Source: Piscirickettsiaceae bacterium (GTDB lineage Bacteria; Pseudomonadota; Gammaproteobacteria; Nitrosococcales; Methylophagaceae). From it: a DNA stretch of 48,669 nt. Shown here piece by piece: positions 4,121 to 10,607 of this stretch. The notes under the pieces are model-generated. The model was not told the origin of the DNA and did no database searches. It worked only from the letters and a program-made list of their open reading frames with translations. Position numbers and translations under genes: made by a program. The first letter of the stretch is position 1. Every line of letters starts with the position of its first letter. The stretch lies in NCBI GenBank assembly GCA_024685975.1, contig JAIBDZ010000010.1, positions 1-48,669 on the forward strand, read 5' to 3'.

Positions 4121-5683
4121 ATGAACAAGATCCAACGCGCTTTATTAAGCGTATCTGATAAAACTGGCGTACTTGAATTAGCGCAACAACTTCACCAACA
4201 CGGTATTGAACTCCTATCAACCGGCGGCACAGCAAAACTGCTTCAAGAAGCAGGACTACCTGTCAAAGAAGTGTCTGAGCACACCGGCTTTCCAGAAATG
4301 ATGGCAGGCCGTATTAAAACACTTCACCCTAAAATCCATGGTGGTTTATTAGGTCGCCGCGGTACTGATGAAGGCATTATGGCTGAGCACGATATTAGCC
4401 CGATCGATTTGGTCGTTGTCAATCTATATCCTTTTGAAGCCACCATTGCTCGCGATGATTGCACTTTAGATATGGCGATTGAAAATATTGATATTGGCGG
4501 CCCAACCATGTTGCGTGCCGCTGCTAAGAATCATGCCGCAGTCACTGTTTTAATTGATCCTAACGACTATCAAAACGTATTAGAGCAAATTGCGACTAAT
4601 GGATGCGTTGATGACGCGACTCGTTTTGATCTTGCCGTCAAAACGTTTGAGCATACTGCTCACTACGATGGCATGATTGCTAATTATTTTGGCACACGAA
4701 CAGAAAGCGAAGACACCACTTTCCCTCGTACATTTAATAGCCAGTTCTATAAAGCACAAGAAATGCGCTATGGTGAGAACCCACATCAAAAAGCCGCATT
4801 CTACACCGAACGCCAGCCTGAATCAGGCACGATTGGCGTCGCTATGCAATTACAAGGTAAAGCGCTGTCATATAACAATATTGCTGACACTGATGCCGCA
4901 TTAGAATGCGTCAAAGCCTTCCCGGAGTCGCCAGCATGCGTCATTGTCAAACATGCTAATCCATGTGGCGTTGCCACCGCTGACAGCATCTTAGATGCCT
5001 ATGAATTAGCCTATCAAACCGATACAACATCGGCCTTTGGCGGCATTATTGCTTTTAATAGAGAATTAGATGCCACAACCGCGCAAACGATTATAGATCG
5101 CCAATTTGTTGAAGTGATTATTGCCCCTTCCGTCAGTGACGAAGCGCAGGCTATTGTCGCTCAAAAAGCCAACGTCAGATTGCTCAACTGTGGAGACTTA
5201 CCTGCAAAAGCGGTCGCAGGCTTAGACTATAAACGCGTCACGGGGGGCTTATTAGTGCAAGATCGAGATATCGCCTTAGTACAAGATGATGAATTAACCG
5301 TTGTCACTAAAAAAGTCCCAACAGAACAGCAAATGCATGATCTTCGTTTTGCATGGCGTGTGGCTAAATTTGTGAAATCCAACGCAATTGTTTACGCTAA
5401 TAAGCAACAGACGATCGGTATTGGTGCAGGACAAATGAGTCGTGTCGTCAGTAGCCGAATTGCAGGCATCAAAGCTGAAGATGCAGGTTTAGTTGTTGAA
5501 GGAGCCGTCATGGCTTCGGATGCGTTCTTCCCATTCCGCGATGGACTAGACGCTGCAGCAGAAGCGGGTATCAGCGCCGTTATTCAACCAGGAGGATCAA
5601 TGCGTGATGAGGAAGTCATTGCAGCAGCAGACGAACACGGTATCGCTATGGTCTTCACAGGTATGCGTCACTTTAGACACTAA
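4121..5683 (+). CDS. purH: Bifunctional AICAR transformylase / IMP cyclohydrolase
   Basis: This 520-residue enzyme performs the last two steps of de novo IMP synthesis. The N-terminal MGS-like IMP cyclohydrolase domain (about 1-195) contains STGGTAKLL and [12 protein letters not shown]. The C-terminal transformylase has the KHANPCGVA catalytic segment and ends with the conserved [12 protein letters not shown]...[12 protein letters not shown]...FTGMRHFRH. Only 24 bases separate it from fis, so it is probably co-transcribed. purD, which often follows, is absent here; the next gene is a CyaA homologue. Confidence 0.98.
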
Positions 5684-5707: not shown

Positions 5708-8350
5708 ATGGATGCCAATCTAGTTATCGATCAATTCCAACAGTTTAACCGCTCTAGACTAGAGCGGTTAAACAAACTGGTTTCACCAAAACAGCACGAC
5801 TTCCTTTCACTACTGCCCATTTTAATACACCATAATTTTTCCGATCTCCCCGCTTATGGAGGCACGGACTGCCCTTTCGGCATTGTTGATTACCAAGTCG
5901 ATGATGACACAATTACCGCGCTACAAAAGCACTACCCTCGTTTCAAATACAAGCGCCAAGGTATCCGAAATTATGGCTTTTCAGCCTTATACCTGATTAA
6001 CCGTTATGGCTTACTAAACCTACCAAGCGAATTAAGCTTTGATATTGTGTTAGTCCATCACGCATTATCATCAAGTCAACAACTCGCTTTAGATAACAAA
6101 TTACAGCTCTTGTCTGAATGGGCCTTGCCATTTGGCATTCAATTAAACTGTATTTTGCTCGACCAAGAAACATTAGCGTCATCGAACAAACCTGAAATCC
6201 TAAATGATTTATACTTAAATGGCCTGATTTTAGCTGGGGCGATCCCATTGTGGTGGCTTACCGCCCCTAATGAACCTTATCCAAAACAAGCCGATATATT
6301 TGATCATCAGCACGCTAAGTACTCGACATTAAACCTCGGTAATGCTGTTTCGTTAAAAGCCTCTGACTATGCTAAAGCACTACATGAGCAATTGTTACAG
6401 GCACTCGATAAGGGCTTGTCACATTGTTTAGATCTCATCTATTTAGAACAACAATTAATCCAATTTCCAAAGGTTTACCCACTTTGCCTTCGATTAAGAT
6501 ATGCTTTACATAAAGGTGAAACTAACCCAATACACCTTGATCAACAAGTATTAAAACTGCAAACAATACAGCACAATAAAGCCATCTCTGCCAATGCAAA
6601 AAAATTAGCCCAACAATCTCTTTACTTGGCCTTCAAAGAAGCATTATCCAAAACCATCAAACAGCCGGCTCACCCCTGGCGCAGAGAATTCATCAAACAA
6701 TTGACTCACGATTGGCAGTGGGCTAACCATGATTTCCTCATCTTAGATAGACGAAACCGGGCTCACTTTACACAATGCCTTGAAGAACACGAGCAAACAA
6801 CAAGCTACTTCACACAGGCATTAACAACGTTAAAAAACTTTTGCCAACAACAACAAATACAAGATCTATCGTTAAAGGAAATTGAACAAACACTCTATCG
6901 CTATCAACAAAACAAACCCAATATACTGAGCCAACTTCCTAGTGGAATAACGGCAAAAGCACCCGAAGAATACCTCTATTTTTACCGCTTCGGCCAAGAG
7001 AGCCTTTGGAAGTTAAGCCTGATCAGCCTTGAATCTGAATCGCAATCAGCCACTTACCAAGCACGCACCTATCTTGAATTAGTCGCTTGGGCTGTTATAA
7101 ACGGCCTATTAAAAAGCGAAACACGCATATTAGTAAGTGATAAAACACAGCAAATCACCTTAAAAGCCGTCATGGATTTATCGGCACAACTGTTACGCAC
7201 AGAATTAGCACACGCAACAGACAAGACTATCGCTCTCACACCAGACAACACCGCGCCACGCAATATTGCATCATTACATTTGTTTGCTAATTTAGATCCA
7301 GAACACAACCTCATTTTTGTTCAACATCAAGACCCTGATATACAGCTCACAACACTACATAATGATCCCTTTAACTATGCCAACCGTGGTGCAAATTTAC
7401 TCTATCAAGTTGATGCATTATTGCTCACCACACAAGGGGAATGGCAATTGTTTCAGTTCAAAGGAAAACAAGCGCCATTACAGCTTTTACAATACTTAAT
7501 TTCATGGTGGAGTGATGCAAAAACGCCCCACCCTATCAGCTGTTGGAGCCCAGCACAAAACCATAGCCAACTGATTAATCATCATTTACAGCAAATGGTA
7601 ACGGACGTGAACCATTATTTCCTGCAAGACAAAACGGCCCAGTTTGTCACTCAATTGGCTCATGAATTATATGTCTTCCATTGGCAACAAGAAGGCGCTG
7701 ACATTAGGCCTTTAAAATCCAGTCATTTAGAGAATGAATTAGCCACATTAAACCAGCAATTTATCTCAACGTATATCGATCGAAGGTTAGATCCAGACCA
7801 AAAACGCTTCACCTTACTCAGTGTTCAAAAGCCCAATACAATAAGCATCATCATTGAAGCCAAAGCACATGACACCATTATTCACATCGTCGATGAGTTG
7901 GCCAATCTCCACCACACGCATTTACAACTCAAGTTTGATACTGCATTGTCACATTACCAACACTTTATTCAAACAATGCATCAGCAACAATCTGAGCTGA
8001 CTATTGATTTTTATCAACTCAAACCTTTCGGCATCAACCAATGGAAGTTAAGCCCAATTAACTTGCCGCAGCCCAATCAAAAAAGAGGCTACTTACCCGT
8101 TATTATTCAAATGGATAGCGCAAAAGAAAATGCGAATTGCATTATCACTTGTGGCCCGAAGCAATTCTCTGGCCTTGCCAATAACGCTCAGTTACTACAA
8201 CAGCTCACTGAGTTTATTATGAACCTTCGAGCCAGTAAAATTGCCTACCCACTTTACATTAATGGCATCACTTTTACTGATCCTGAGCAAGTCACAGCAG
8301 CCGATTACATCATGCAAAAACACCGGTTTGAACAACAGTTAAACCAATAA
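5708..8350 (+). CDS. Class I adenylate cyclase homologue with a degenerate catalytic signature
   Basis: This 880-residue protein belongs to the class I (CyaA) adenylate cyclase family. Matches to E. coli CyaA by eye include the N-terminal LLPILIHHN...PFGI segment (residues 35-59), LLSEWALPFGIQLNCILLD (134-152), WRREFIKQLTHDWQW (324-338) and the regulatory C-terminal half. The nucleotidyl-transfer signature (G102-S103...S113-D114-L-D116-I-W118 in E. coli) aligns without gaps to N98-R99...L109-S110-F-D112-I-V114, so only the second Asp remains. It may therefore be a catalytically dead or repurposed homologue. The gene is intact, so it is not an obvious pseudogene. A 31-bp palindrome lies in codons 12-22. 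It starts 24 bases after purH. The family is fairly sure; loss of activity is inferred. Confidence 0.8.
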   Translation: MDANLVIDQFQQFNRSRLERLNKLVSPKQHDFLSLLPILIHHNFSDLPAYGGTDCPFGIVDYQVDDDTITALQKHYPRFKYKRQGIRNYGFSALYLINRYGLLNLPSELSFDIVLVHHALSSSQQLALDNKLQLLSEWALPFGIQLNCILLDQETLASSNKPEILNDLYLNGLILAGAIPLWWLTAPNEPYPKQADIFDHQHAKYSTLNLGNAVSLKASDYAKALHEQLLQALDKGLSHCLDLIYLEQQLIQFPKVYPLCLRLRYALHKGETNPIHLDQQVLKLQTIQHNKAISANAKKLAQQSLYLAFKEALSKTIKQPAHPWRREFIKQLTHDWQWANHDFLILDRRNRAHFTQCLEEHEQTTSYFTQALTTLKNFCQQQQIQDLSLKEIEQTLYRYQQNKPNILSQLPSGITAKAPEEYLYFYRFGQESLWKLSLISLESESQSATYQARTYLELVAWAVINGLLKSETRILVSDKTQQITLKAVMDLSAQLLRTELAHATDKTIALTPDNTAPRNIASLHLFANLDPEHNLIFVQHQDPDIQLTTLHNDPFNYANRGANLLYQVDALLLTTQGEWQLFQFKGKQAPLQLLQYLISWWSDAKTPHPISCWSPAQNHSQLINHHLQQMVTDVNHYFLQDKTAQFVTQLAHELYVFHWQQEGADIRPLKSSHLENELATLNQQFISTYIDRRLDPDQKRFTLLSVQKPNTISIIIEAKAHDTIIHIVDELANLHHTHLQLKFDTALSHYQHFIQTMHQQQSELTIDFYQLKPFGINQWKLSPINLPQPNQKRGYLPVIIQMDSAKENANCIITCGPKQFSGLANNAQLLQQLTEFIMNLRASKIAYPLYINGITFTDPEQVTAADYIMQKHRFEQQLNQ
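5743..5773. repeat. 31-bp near-perfect palindrome inside the 5' end of the CyaA-like gene
   Basis: The 15-base arm GTTTAACCGCTCTAG (5743-5757) is exactly repeated in inverted orientation at 5759-5773, with one central base. As RNA it would form a stem of about 14 bp with a 3-base loop, starting 35 bases after the start codon. No U-run follows, so it is not a standard terminator. It encodes FNRSRLERLN without breaking the frame. It could be an operator, a translation-blocking hairpin or a recombination relic. Confidence 0.85.
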
Positions 8351-8417: not shown

Positions 8418-9446
8418 ATGATTACAGTCGGCATTGTCGGTGCAACCGGTTATACAGGCGTTGAATTATTACGCCTACTCAGTCAACACCCCCAAGTTGT
8501 CATTCAATGCGTTACATCTCGAAGTGAAGCAGGTAAAGCCGTTAGTGAATTATTTCCTAATCTAAGAGGTCATATTGATATTGCTTTTAGTGAGCCTGAC
8601 ATCAATCAATTGGCTGACTGTGATGTCGTTTTTTTCGCCACACCGCATTGTGTCGCCATGGATATGGTGCCCCAACTCATCGCACGCAATACCAAAGTTA
8701 TTGATTTATCCGCAGACTTTAGACTGCAAGACGTCAATCAATGGCAAGATTGGTACAAGATGACTCATACTTGCCCTGAACTGATTGAGCAAGCAGTCTA
8801 TGGCCTACCAGAAGTCAATCGTGAACAAATAAAACAAGCGCAATTAATCGCTGTACCAGGTTGTTACCCAACAGCAACACAACTCGGTTTCTTACCGCTA
8901 TTGGAACAGAACTTGGTTGATCCAAGCCACCTCATTGCCGATGCCAAATCAGGTGTCAGTGGAGCTGGCCGAAAAGCGGCTATCGCGACATTATTAACCG
9001 AATCCTCGGAAAATATGACCGCTTACGCCGTATCAGGTCATCGCCACTTGCCTGAAATTACACAAGGGCTAAACAAGGCCTGTAATACACCGGTACACCT
9101 CACCTTTGTTCCGCACTTAACCCCGATGATTAGAGGTATTCACGCTACTTTATATGCTACCGCTACTCAAGAAGCGGATTTACAAGCGGTGTTTGAACAA
9201 CGTTATGCTAACGAGCCTTTTGTTGATGTATTACCAGCAGGTCACCATCCTTCGACTAGAACGGTCAAAGGGACCAACCTATGCAGAATAGCGGTACATC
9301 AACCCCAAAATAGCAATACTGTTGTCGTTTTATCAGTCATTGATAATCTCGTCAAAGGCGCCTCAGGACAAGCAATTCAAAATATGAATATTCTTTTTGG
9401 CTTTCCTGAAACAATGGCTATCGATGCCATTGCTGTCATGCCATAA
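8418..9446 (+). CDS. argC: N-acetyl-gamma-glutamyl-phosphate reductase
   Basis: This 342-residue NADPH-dependent enzyme makes N-acetylglutamate semialdehyde in arginine synthesis. The dinucleotide loop GATGYTG is at residues 8-14. The catalytic cysteine is C149 in [12 protein letters not shown]. The substrate-binding segment SGHRHLPEI and the C-terminal [15 protein letters not shown] are intact. It is the first gene of the argC-DUF6776-bactofilin-erpA block, an order also seen in pseudomonads. argH, the last step of the pathway, is at 23.3 kb. Confidence 0.97.
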
Positions 9447-10157
9447 GTGCTCATGACATCATCAATACATCAGCACGATACCCATGTTATAAAAAAGTTA
9501 CTTAGCGTCCTTATCTTATTATTAATCATTGCAATAGCTCTATCGAGTTACCGCTATTATGCAAAAGACAGTTTATCCAACCAAATTTATACCTTAACGC
9601 AGCAAAACAACACGCTCCTGAAAGACAACACCGCTCTCAATGCACAAAGAGAAGACTTGCTCAAGACCTTATCAGAACAACAACAAACCATCGCAATACA
9701 ACAAGCGACAACAACAGAGTTACAAACCCAGCTCAACACACTACAAGATGACATCATCACCTTAAATCAAGAGCTCGATTTTTATCAAAATATTACCAGC
9801 GGTCAAACCACGAGCAAGCTACATATCAAAGAATTTAACTTAAGTGCTGAAACAGCACTTGCAGGTTTATATCGTTACCGCCTCGTTCTTGCACAAGGGA
9901 AAAAAATTACTCAACCGTTAACCGGCACCGTCAAGCTGTCCCTTAATGGTAGACTAGCTGAAGAAACGACAACAGTAGACATCACAGAACACGCCATGAG
10001 ATTAAGACATATTCAAGTTATTCATGGACTTATACAATTACAAAATGATTTCGCACCAGAGACACTCACCGTCAAGGTCACCCAAAACAAAAAAAACACG
10101 CTCAATACCACATTAGACTGGAACGACCTCACCCAACCAGTACAAACGGAAAGGTAA
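9447..10157 (+). CDS. DUF6776-like single-pass membrane coiled-coil protein
   Basis: This protein has a short cytoplasmic tail, one membrane anchor (about residues 17-37) and a long coiled coil with many Gln and Leu (about 45-112). A compact C-terminal domain starts after DFYQNI, which resembles the DUF6776 family. The GTG at 9447 directly follows the argC stop; an in-frame ATG at 9453 is an alternative start, and neither has a clear ribosome site. The bactofilin starts 3 bases downstream. Position suggests a cell-envelope or cell-shape partner of the bactofilin. No enzymatic role is visible. Confidence 0.75.
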   Translation: MLMTSSIHQHDTHVIKKLLSVLILLLIIAIALSSYRYYAKDSLSNQIYTLTQQNNTLLKDNTALNAQREDLLKTLSEQQQTIAIQQATTTELQTQLNTLQDDIITLNQELDFYQNITSGQTTSKLHIKEFNLSAETALAGLYRYRLVLAQGKKITQPLTGTVKLSLNGRLAEETTTVDITEHAMRLRHIQVIHGLIQLQNDFAPETLTVKVTQNKKNTLNTTLDWNDLTQPVQTER

Positions 10158-10160
10158 ATC

Positions 10161-10607
10161 ATGTTTACAAAGTCAAAAAAGAAAAGAAGCCATAAATCCC
10201 ATGTTCATATTGATACCTTAATTGGACAACATACTCACTTAAAAGGCGATATTGAGTTTAGTGGCGGGATTCGAATCGATGGCAAAATCACCGGTACAAT
10301 CAACGCAATTAACGATATAGACTCAGTACTAACACTAAGCGAACTTGGCGCCATAGAAGGTGAAGTGCGCGTGCCTAATATGATTATTAATGGCCAAATT
10401 AACGGTGATATTTATGCCATGGGACACATCGAACTCGCTGACAAAGCAAAAATCACTGGCAATGTTTTTTATCGACTGATAGAAATGGCCGTTGGCGCAG
10501 AAGTGAATGGCCAACTGATTCGCATGTCAGCTGAAGAAAACGGCCAACAACAACTACAGCAAGAGGCAACCCAGGCAGGTCAAATAGAACAAAAGTCTAA
10601 TTCTTGA
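10161..10607 (+). CDS. Bactofilin (polymer-forming cytoskeletal protein)
   Basis: This is a 148-residue protein with the bactofilin beta-helix core at about residues 19-115, recognisable from TLIGQHTHLKGDIEFSGGIR, IDGKITGTI and GEVRVPNMIINGQINGDIY. Bactofilins polymerise without nucleotides and position cell-wall enzymes or polar structures. The N-terminus is short and Lys/Arg-rich; the C-terminal tail is Gln-rich and probably disordered. It follows the coiled-coil membrane protein by 3 bases, consistent with a working pair. The family call is firm; the role in this organism is unknown. Confidence 0.9.
   Translation: MFTKSKKKRSHKSHVHIDTLIGQHTHLKGDIEFSGGIRIDGKITGTINAINDIDSVLTLSELGAIEGEVRVPNMIINGQINGDIYAMGHIELADKAKITGNVFYRLIEMAVGAEVNGQLIRMSAEENGQQQLQQEATQAGQIEQKSNS

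Follow-up and report, generated by a model that had tools for sequence, protein, structure and literature searches.

In CyaA of Escherichia coli, the Ser and Asp residues of the active site are essential for activity, and the regulatory half of the protein senses a metabolic or protein signal. Xanthomonas is not known to have a cyclase. Clp of Xanthomonas is a CRP homolog that binds cyclic di-GMP and carries a signature glutamate, E99 (PMC10333796); PMC3528676 supports Clp in its reference list only. Pseudoenzymes are catalytically dead relatives of enzymes kept for regulatory roles (PMC10211241 and PMC5106787). Within the open-licence literature, no report of a dead class I cyclase was found among the top-ranked search results, and the papers that name both Methylophaga and adenylate cyclase are, by title and opening of the abstract, on other subjects; the main text of an expression paper on Methylophaga thiooxydans (PMC6548844) mentions no cyclase and no Crp, and an article on the nucleotidyltransferase fold (PMC11646218) mentions neither CyaA nor adenylate cyclase.

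We examined a 48,669-nucleotide stretch of DNA (the window; contig JAIBDZ010000010.1) from a member of the Methylophagaceae, a family of marine bacteria that live on methanol; in it, one gene has the pseudoenzymes as its nearest known counterparts: judged from its sequence, it encodes a CyaA homolog, and ortholog, without the Gly-Ser and DxD motif by which the enzyme is recognized. The product resembles CyaA in its full-length architecture (PF12633 plus PF01295), in occupying the locus that intact cyaA holds in two other members of the order, and in keeping 31 of 76 invariant columns; it differs in that Gly-Ser and DxD are gone, together with the SSGSxQ segment and a number of conserved lysines and aromatic residues. 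Like other pseudoenzymes, it has kept its predicted fold and lost its catalytic motif while selection retains the protein; unlike them, the apparently dead copy is the sole class I copy found, with no active paralog beside it. The explanation that we favor, and that as a whole seems reasonably probable, is that a cyaA ortholog became a catalytically dead pseudoenzyme kept as a sensor or scaffold, in a lineage whose cAMP circuit was altered.

A CyaA homolog lacking the class I catalytic motif

The gene (positions 5708 to 8350, forward strand) opens with ATG and runs for 880 codons with zero internal stops. Its product scores 90.7 bits against PF12633, the N-terminal nucleotidyltransferase domain (residues 6 to 161; 5723 to 6190, forward strand), and 130 bits against PF01295 (residues 208 to 764; 6329 to 7999, forward strand), both above the curated cutoff of 27 bits, which identifies it as a class I adenylate cyclase homolog. 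Nine NCBIfam class I cyclase equivalog models also match it, none above cutoff, the best at 302.3 bits against a cutoff of 1300. The protein has 880 amino acids, compared with 848 in E. coli CyaA and 943 to 957 in six aligned intact long forms.

A prior interpretation made from the letters alone (the sequence-only reading) had placed N98-R99 and L109-S110-F-D112-I-V at the active site by an ungapped alignment by eye, and had concluded that an intact 880-codon CyaA homolog had lost its catalytic signature. The conclusion was confirmed by the Pfam matches and by gapped MAFFT alignments that included E. coli CyaA along with further intact class I enzymes and that also reproduced the register. Codons 98 and 99 (AAC CGT; 5999 to 6004, forward strand) encode Asn-Arg opposite Gly102-Ser103 of E. 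coli CyaA, and codons 109 to 114 (TTA AGC TTT GAT ATT GTG; 6032 to 6049, forward strand) encode L109-S110-F-D112-I-V114 opposite Ser113-Asp114-Leu-Asp116-Ile-Trp118, with S110 and D112 facing Asp114 and Asp116. Where the enzyme has Gly-Ser and DxD, the window protein therefore has N-R and S-F-D; it contains no GS dipeptide anywhere and has Val at the place of Trp118. At a junction near residue 164 (6194 to 6205, forward strand), the alignment shows that the window protein lacks some twelve residues which, in intact cyclases, surround and include SSGSxQ.

Near the start of the gene, in codons 12 to 22, lies a perfect inverted repeat with 15-nt arms and a 1-nt spacer (5743 to 5773), which codes for part of a conserved NRxRxERL stretch and is the longest perfect inverted repeat listed for the window at spacings of up to 40. 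In the first 110 bases of the open pieces from 44 relatives, the best inverted-repeat arms were 3 to 7 nt, apart from a single case of 11 nt (G065).

Loss of the active site across the Methylophagaceae

An initial contig scan with the window protein alone as the query confirmed no relative. PF12633 matched 48 of 57 family genomes, at 26.4 to 123.9 bits, and sorting the 57 gave 39 full-length copies, which span three genera, 6 broken copies from two genera (G003, G007, G008, G013, G014, and G063; some of the frame breaks are possibly assembly errors), 1 truncated copy (G074), 2 pieces cut by contig ends (G028 and G073), and 9 genomes without a match. Carriers among the named records are Methylophaga aminisulfidivorans, M. 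sulfidovorans, and MAGs filed as Methylophaga, Piscirickettsiaceae, Gammaproteobacteria, or Pseudomonadota. Among 274 genomes sampled across the class there were 83 PF12633 matches, 77 of them scoring 213.5 to 268.7 bits; the other six were the family members G000 and G030, G149 (109.5 bits), G198 (83 bits), and the sub-cutoff fragments G101 and G120.

No intact cyaA was found beside the degenerate gene by the PF12633 search in any of the 57 family genomes, which vary in completeness, and in the window's genome, 67.6% complete, the window ORF was the sole match to PF12633 and to PF01295. A second, canonical cyaA, for which the sequence-only reading had advised a search, was thus found in neither set, and we rejected the idea that the gene is a spare copy beside an intact one.

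Forty-seven family sequences were aligned, 44 of which include the motif region. Gly-Ser is at its place in none of the 44 (Gly102 in 0, Ser103 in 2), Asp114 is present in 2, and no sequence has Gly-Ser plus DxD or combines three of these four residues; position 102 is Asn in 39. By comparison, Gly102, Ser103, Ser113, Asp114, Asp116, and Trp118 are all present in 37 of 37 and then 43 of 43 intact cyclases (80 of 80), a set comprising E. coli CyaA, the order-mates G039 and G040, and all 77 class genomes scoring at least 213 bits. The earlier remark that one acid survives holds for D112 of the window protein and fails as a family rule: the 116 place is acidic in 35 of the 44, window included, and is Thr in the window's two nearest relatives, G012 and G010. 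Acids occupy both Asp places in 11 sequences, and Trp118 is kept by 38. Read from these alignments, the loss of the catalytic motif is common to the whole family, wider than had been claimed for the single protein. A quirk of one genome or a sequencing error was rejected, the same loss being seen in 44 of 44 sequences with the region, the window's among them.

The loss extends beyond the motif. In the first 37 comparison cyclases, whose rows mostly end after about 700 residues, 76 columns do not vary. Of these, 31 retain their residue in 80% or more of the 39 full-length family proteins and 33 do so in 20% or fewer, with 27 of those 33 falling within E. coli residues 102 to 332. Lost columns include E150, F153, F154, the 175 to 182 segment, R188, K260, K264, K332, and K432, and columns 175, 178, 181, and 182, in the SSGSxQ segment, are gaps in all 39.

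Locus, orthology, and origin

In the window, the gene lies 24 bp downstream of purH (4121 to 5683, forward strand; NF002049, 793.5 bits) and 67 bp upstream of argC (8418 to 9446, forward strand; TIGR01850, 448.3 bits). The order purH-cya-argC recurs at family loci wherever the flank covers both sides, and the same order occurs in the order-mates G039 and G040, both of which have an intact cyaA; purH and argC neighbors were not found in four other members of the class, G054, G042, G050, and G048, where the flanks are about 1.2 to 1.5 kb. This shared locus indicates that the degenerate gene is an ortholog of cyaA, apparently degraded in place at the old locus. After argC come a DUF6776 protein (9447 to 10157) and a bactofilin (10161 to 10607), an order that also recurs at family loci with enough flank.

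In a tree of 55 rows built by a quick method, the 39 full-length degenerate proteins form one group, supported at SH-aLRT 100, whose stem measures 1.03 changes per site. Catalytic decay apparently occurred once, most simply in the family ancestor. Damaged active sites also occur in two class I cyclase-like proteins that belong to different families within the class: one retains GS with FRL at the DxD place (G149, L225), and the other is missing the loop in the alignment (G198, L226). Both sit on long branches apart from the Methylophagaceae, and active-site loss may therefore have arisen more than once.

Selection on the degenerate gene

Nei-Gojobori dN/dS was 0.096 to 0.195 in 11 family pairs (dS 0.13 to 1.62; some pairs share a genome), 0.092 to 0.195 in all 18 family pairs with dS below 1.6, and low along the whole length of the gene. 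In the same 11 pairs, argC and purH gave 0.006 to 0.084. The intact pair G040/G039 gave 0.118 for cyaA, 0.056 for argC, and 0.082 for purH, and other intact cyaA pairs (partial genes, dN about 0.2 or less) gave 0.118, 0.149, 0.320, 0.065, and 0.048. Constraint on the degenerate gene is thus inside the range of the intact enzyme, yet weaker relative to the neighbors, with a wider gap than in G040/G039, the sole intact pair with the same neighbors. The window copy has no relative close enough for dN/dS, and selection is read from the relatives; the claim of the sequence-only reading that the frame is kept by selection stands for those relatives and extends to the window's own copy only through them. 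The same applies to its description as a pseudoenzyme: homology without the catalytic motif is seen in the window protein itself, selection in the 11 pairs of relatives.

The foremost alternative is that the gene is a functionless relic, slowly decaying with its frame still unbroken. Among the 57 family genomes, the six broken copies, the single truncated one, and the nine genomes without a match fit such decay and tell against a retained function, as does constraint weaker than that on argC and purH in the same pairs; the gene evolves fast relative to its neighbors, and the window's own branch, at 0.9 against 0.28 for its sister, is long. The gene may be dispensable in some lineages. A relic would not, however, be expected to be full length in 39 of 57 genomes across three genera with dN/dS as low as that above, and the window lineage is fast in more than this gene. 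Window and G012 copies are 44% identical, compared with 87% for purH, 80% for argC, and 46 to 91% across ten neighbors, and the ratio of changes in G000 to those in G012 is 1.0 to 4.7 in ten neighbors and 2.2 to 2.7 in the cyclase-like gene; the lineage is fast in most neighbors too, and relaxation peculiar to the window copy was rejected. We consider a relic rather improbable.

Conservation along the protein bears on which part of the putative pseudoenzyme is kept. Mean identity over residues 91 to 122, 123 to 200, and 201 to 320 is 0.42, 0.37, and 0.32 in the family against 0.57, 0.50, and 0.56 in six intact long forms, and over residues 321 to 420 it is 0.29 against 0.46; residues 1 to 90 give 0.44 and 0.43, and residues 421 to 880 give 0.30 to 0.41 and 0.28 to 0.41. 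The C-terminal region (residues 797 to 880; 8096 to 8347, forward strand) is among the better conserved parts in the family; its mean pairwise identity is the same, 0.41, among 19 family representatives and among the six intact long forms. The comparison, between two sets that differ in depth, is suggestive of a catalytic half that lost its extra conservation and a regulatory half that did not.

The remaining cAMP circuit

The CpdA equivalog was above cutoff in 0 of 57 family genomes, where the 11 matches seen were weak (40.7 bits at best), whereas four of six order-mates scored 215 to 239 bits, two of them above the cutoff of 225. A class III cyclase domain was found in only 2 of 57 family genomes (G033 at 99 bits, G002 at the cutoff), and replacement by such a cyclase was rejected. 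Of the 57 family genomes, 52 encode CYTH domains, as do four of six order-mates; of two CYTH proteins scanned with TIGR00318 (cyaB), one scored 13.4 bits against a cutoff of 57.95 and the other gave no match, and a class IV substitute among the rest is conceivable.

A CRP above the equivalog cutoff is encoded by 45 of the 57 family genomes, and 9 of 11 outgroup genomes have one as well. The sequence-only reading had called for a search for crp; the gene is present in most of the family, and none was found in the window's own genome, perhaps owing to its incompleteness. We take the cAMP contacts of CRP to be Glu72, Arg82, Ser83, and Thr127, with Ser83 contacting the cAMP phosphate. In the 45 family CRPs, Gly71, Glu72, Arg82, and Arg123 are universal, Thr127 is kept in 36, and Ser83 in 7, the Ser83 place holding M in 17, T in 7, S in 7, G in 4, A in 3, K in 3, Q in 2, and I in 2. 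Of 10 outgroup CRPs above cutoff, from 9 genomes, 9 have Ser83; the exception is Asp in G036, which has no cyaA match. Two order-mates that likewise lack a cyaA match, G038 and G041, nonetheless retain Ser83; the link between cyaA loss and Ser83 is therefore not strict, and the universal Gly71, Glu72, and Arg82 mean that cAMP binding is not clearly gone. From these comparisons, the remaining circuit looks altered in the family at CpdA and at Ser83 of CRP. The family-wide loss, the orthology at the old locus, and these two changes had not been foreseen.

Alteration at the Ser83 place recalls Clp, whose E99 presumably occupies the equivalent position. The family CRPs differ in that none of the 45 has Glu there, and the signature glutamate of a Clp-type cyclic di-GMP receptor, on that presumed equivalence, is absent. 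Compared with E. coli CRP, the proteins at family CRP loci L130 to L159 have five extra residues inserted beyond the nucleotide-binding core, as do those of the order-mates G036 and G038 to G041.

A further alternative is that the cyclase-like protein is a partner of the CRP homolog, holding or releasing it without cAMP. The persistence of CRP in 45 genomes with an altered cAMP site would suit such a pairing. The two genes nevertheless come apart: CRP is above cutoff in G011, G020, and G060 (and slightly below it in G005), which have no cyclase-like gene, and beside broken copies in G003, G007, G008, G014, and G063. We regard this partnership as unlikely.

Predicted structure and the improbable reading of an active enzyme

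An AlphaFold2 model of the whole window protein, from 23 family sequences, had a pLDDT of 84.7 and a pTM of 0.73. Foldseek gave zero PDB matches at an E value of 0.001 or less; the best were aminoglycoside adenylyltransferases (E value, 0.013), followed by MNT nucleotidyltransferases with probability up to 0.97, and there were weak matches to actin-like ATPase folds. No solved class I cyclase structure was found by sequence search. The model is consistent with a nucleotidyltransferase-like fold.

That predicted fold leaves room for continued activity, as a cyclase or another nucleotidyltransferase, by way of catalytic residues that have shifted or moved elsewhere, as do Glu72 and Arg82 of CRP, the acid at the second Asp place and the Trp kept by most members, and a few near misses: G009, G002, G024, and G028 have GS three residues downstream with acids at both Asp places, and G032 has DxD with GG three residues past the usual Gly-Ser place. 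Some species, such as those nearest a working motif, could conceivably retain residual activity. For the family, Gly-Ser is at its place in none of the 44 sequences, no CpdA is above cutoff, and the window protein has neither GS nor the Trp; in residues 1 to 310, moreover, with Asp and Glu counted separately, there is no column in which 37 or more of the 39 proteins keep either residue, which argues against a relocated metal site. An active enzyme is therefore a very improbable reading.

An alignment error hiding a true GS..DxD elsewhere in the protein is extremely improbable: the pattern G[SG]-(6-14)-DxD, found in 37 of 37 intact cyclases tested alongside, does turn up in 7 of the 39 full-length proteins of the family (17 with Glu permitted for Asp), the window's included (GG at residue 51), but at scattered positions, and the active-site register is identical in the 86-sequence alignment and in the Pfam match across the region, which also answers the earlier concern about a profile alignment.

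A proposed pseudoenzyme in an apparently changed cAMP circuit

We propose that in an ancestor of the Methylophagaceae the class I active site of the cyaA ortholog disappeared, taking with it Gly-Ser, DxD, the segment around SSGSxQ, and conserved lysines, and that cAMP synthesis went too; its loss across the family is, on these comparisons, very probable. The gene would afterwards have been kept as a pseudoenzyme under purifying selection, while in the same lineage cAMP signaling was altered, CpdA not being found and Ser83 of CRP no longer being held. Purifying selection in most examined species makes a nonenzymatic job probable, and some function has probably been retained. As preferred mechanism, we infer that the regulatory half lets the protein act as a sensor or scaffold, in which case the helical and C-terminal halves would still sense a metabolic or protein signal and give their output by protein contact instead of cAMP. 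The sequence-only reading had offered a sensor or scaffold role; the regulatory-half conservation, suggestive as it is, fits that idea, and the role itself stays conjectural. A bolder version, in which the only class I cyclase turned in place into a dead signaling protein that signals by direct contact, with CpdA lost and the cAMP site of CRP released, is a tentative and rather doubtful one.

The window protein passes the Pfam cutoffs, PF12633 is above cutoff in 48 of the 57 genomes, and annotation by Pfam would therefore assign cAMP synthesis to the family, despite few or none of the usual cAMP-synthesis enzymes being found there. Nature would here have separated the catalytic half of CyaA from the regulatory half, so that what the latter does alone could be tested. 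The family is, in addition, a candidate for a second-messenger circuit that has lost its messenger with both ends still in place; if this is true, the Methylophagaceae would have rewired a cAMP circuit to run without cAMP.
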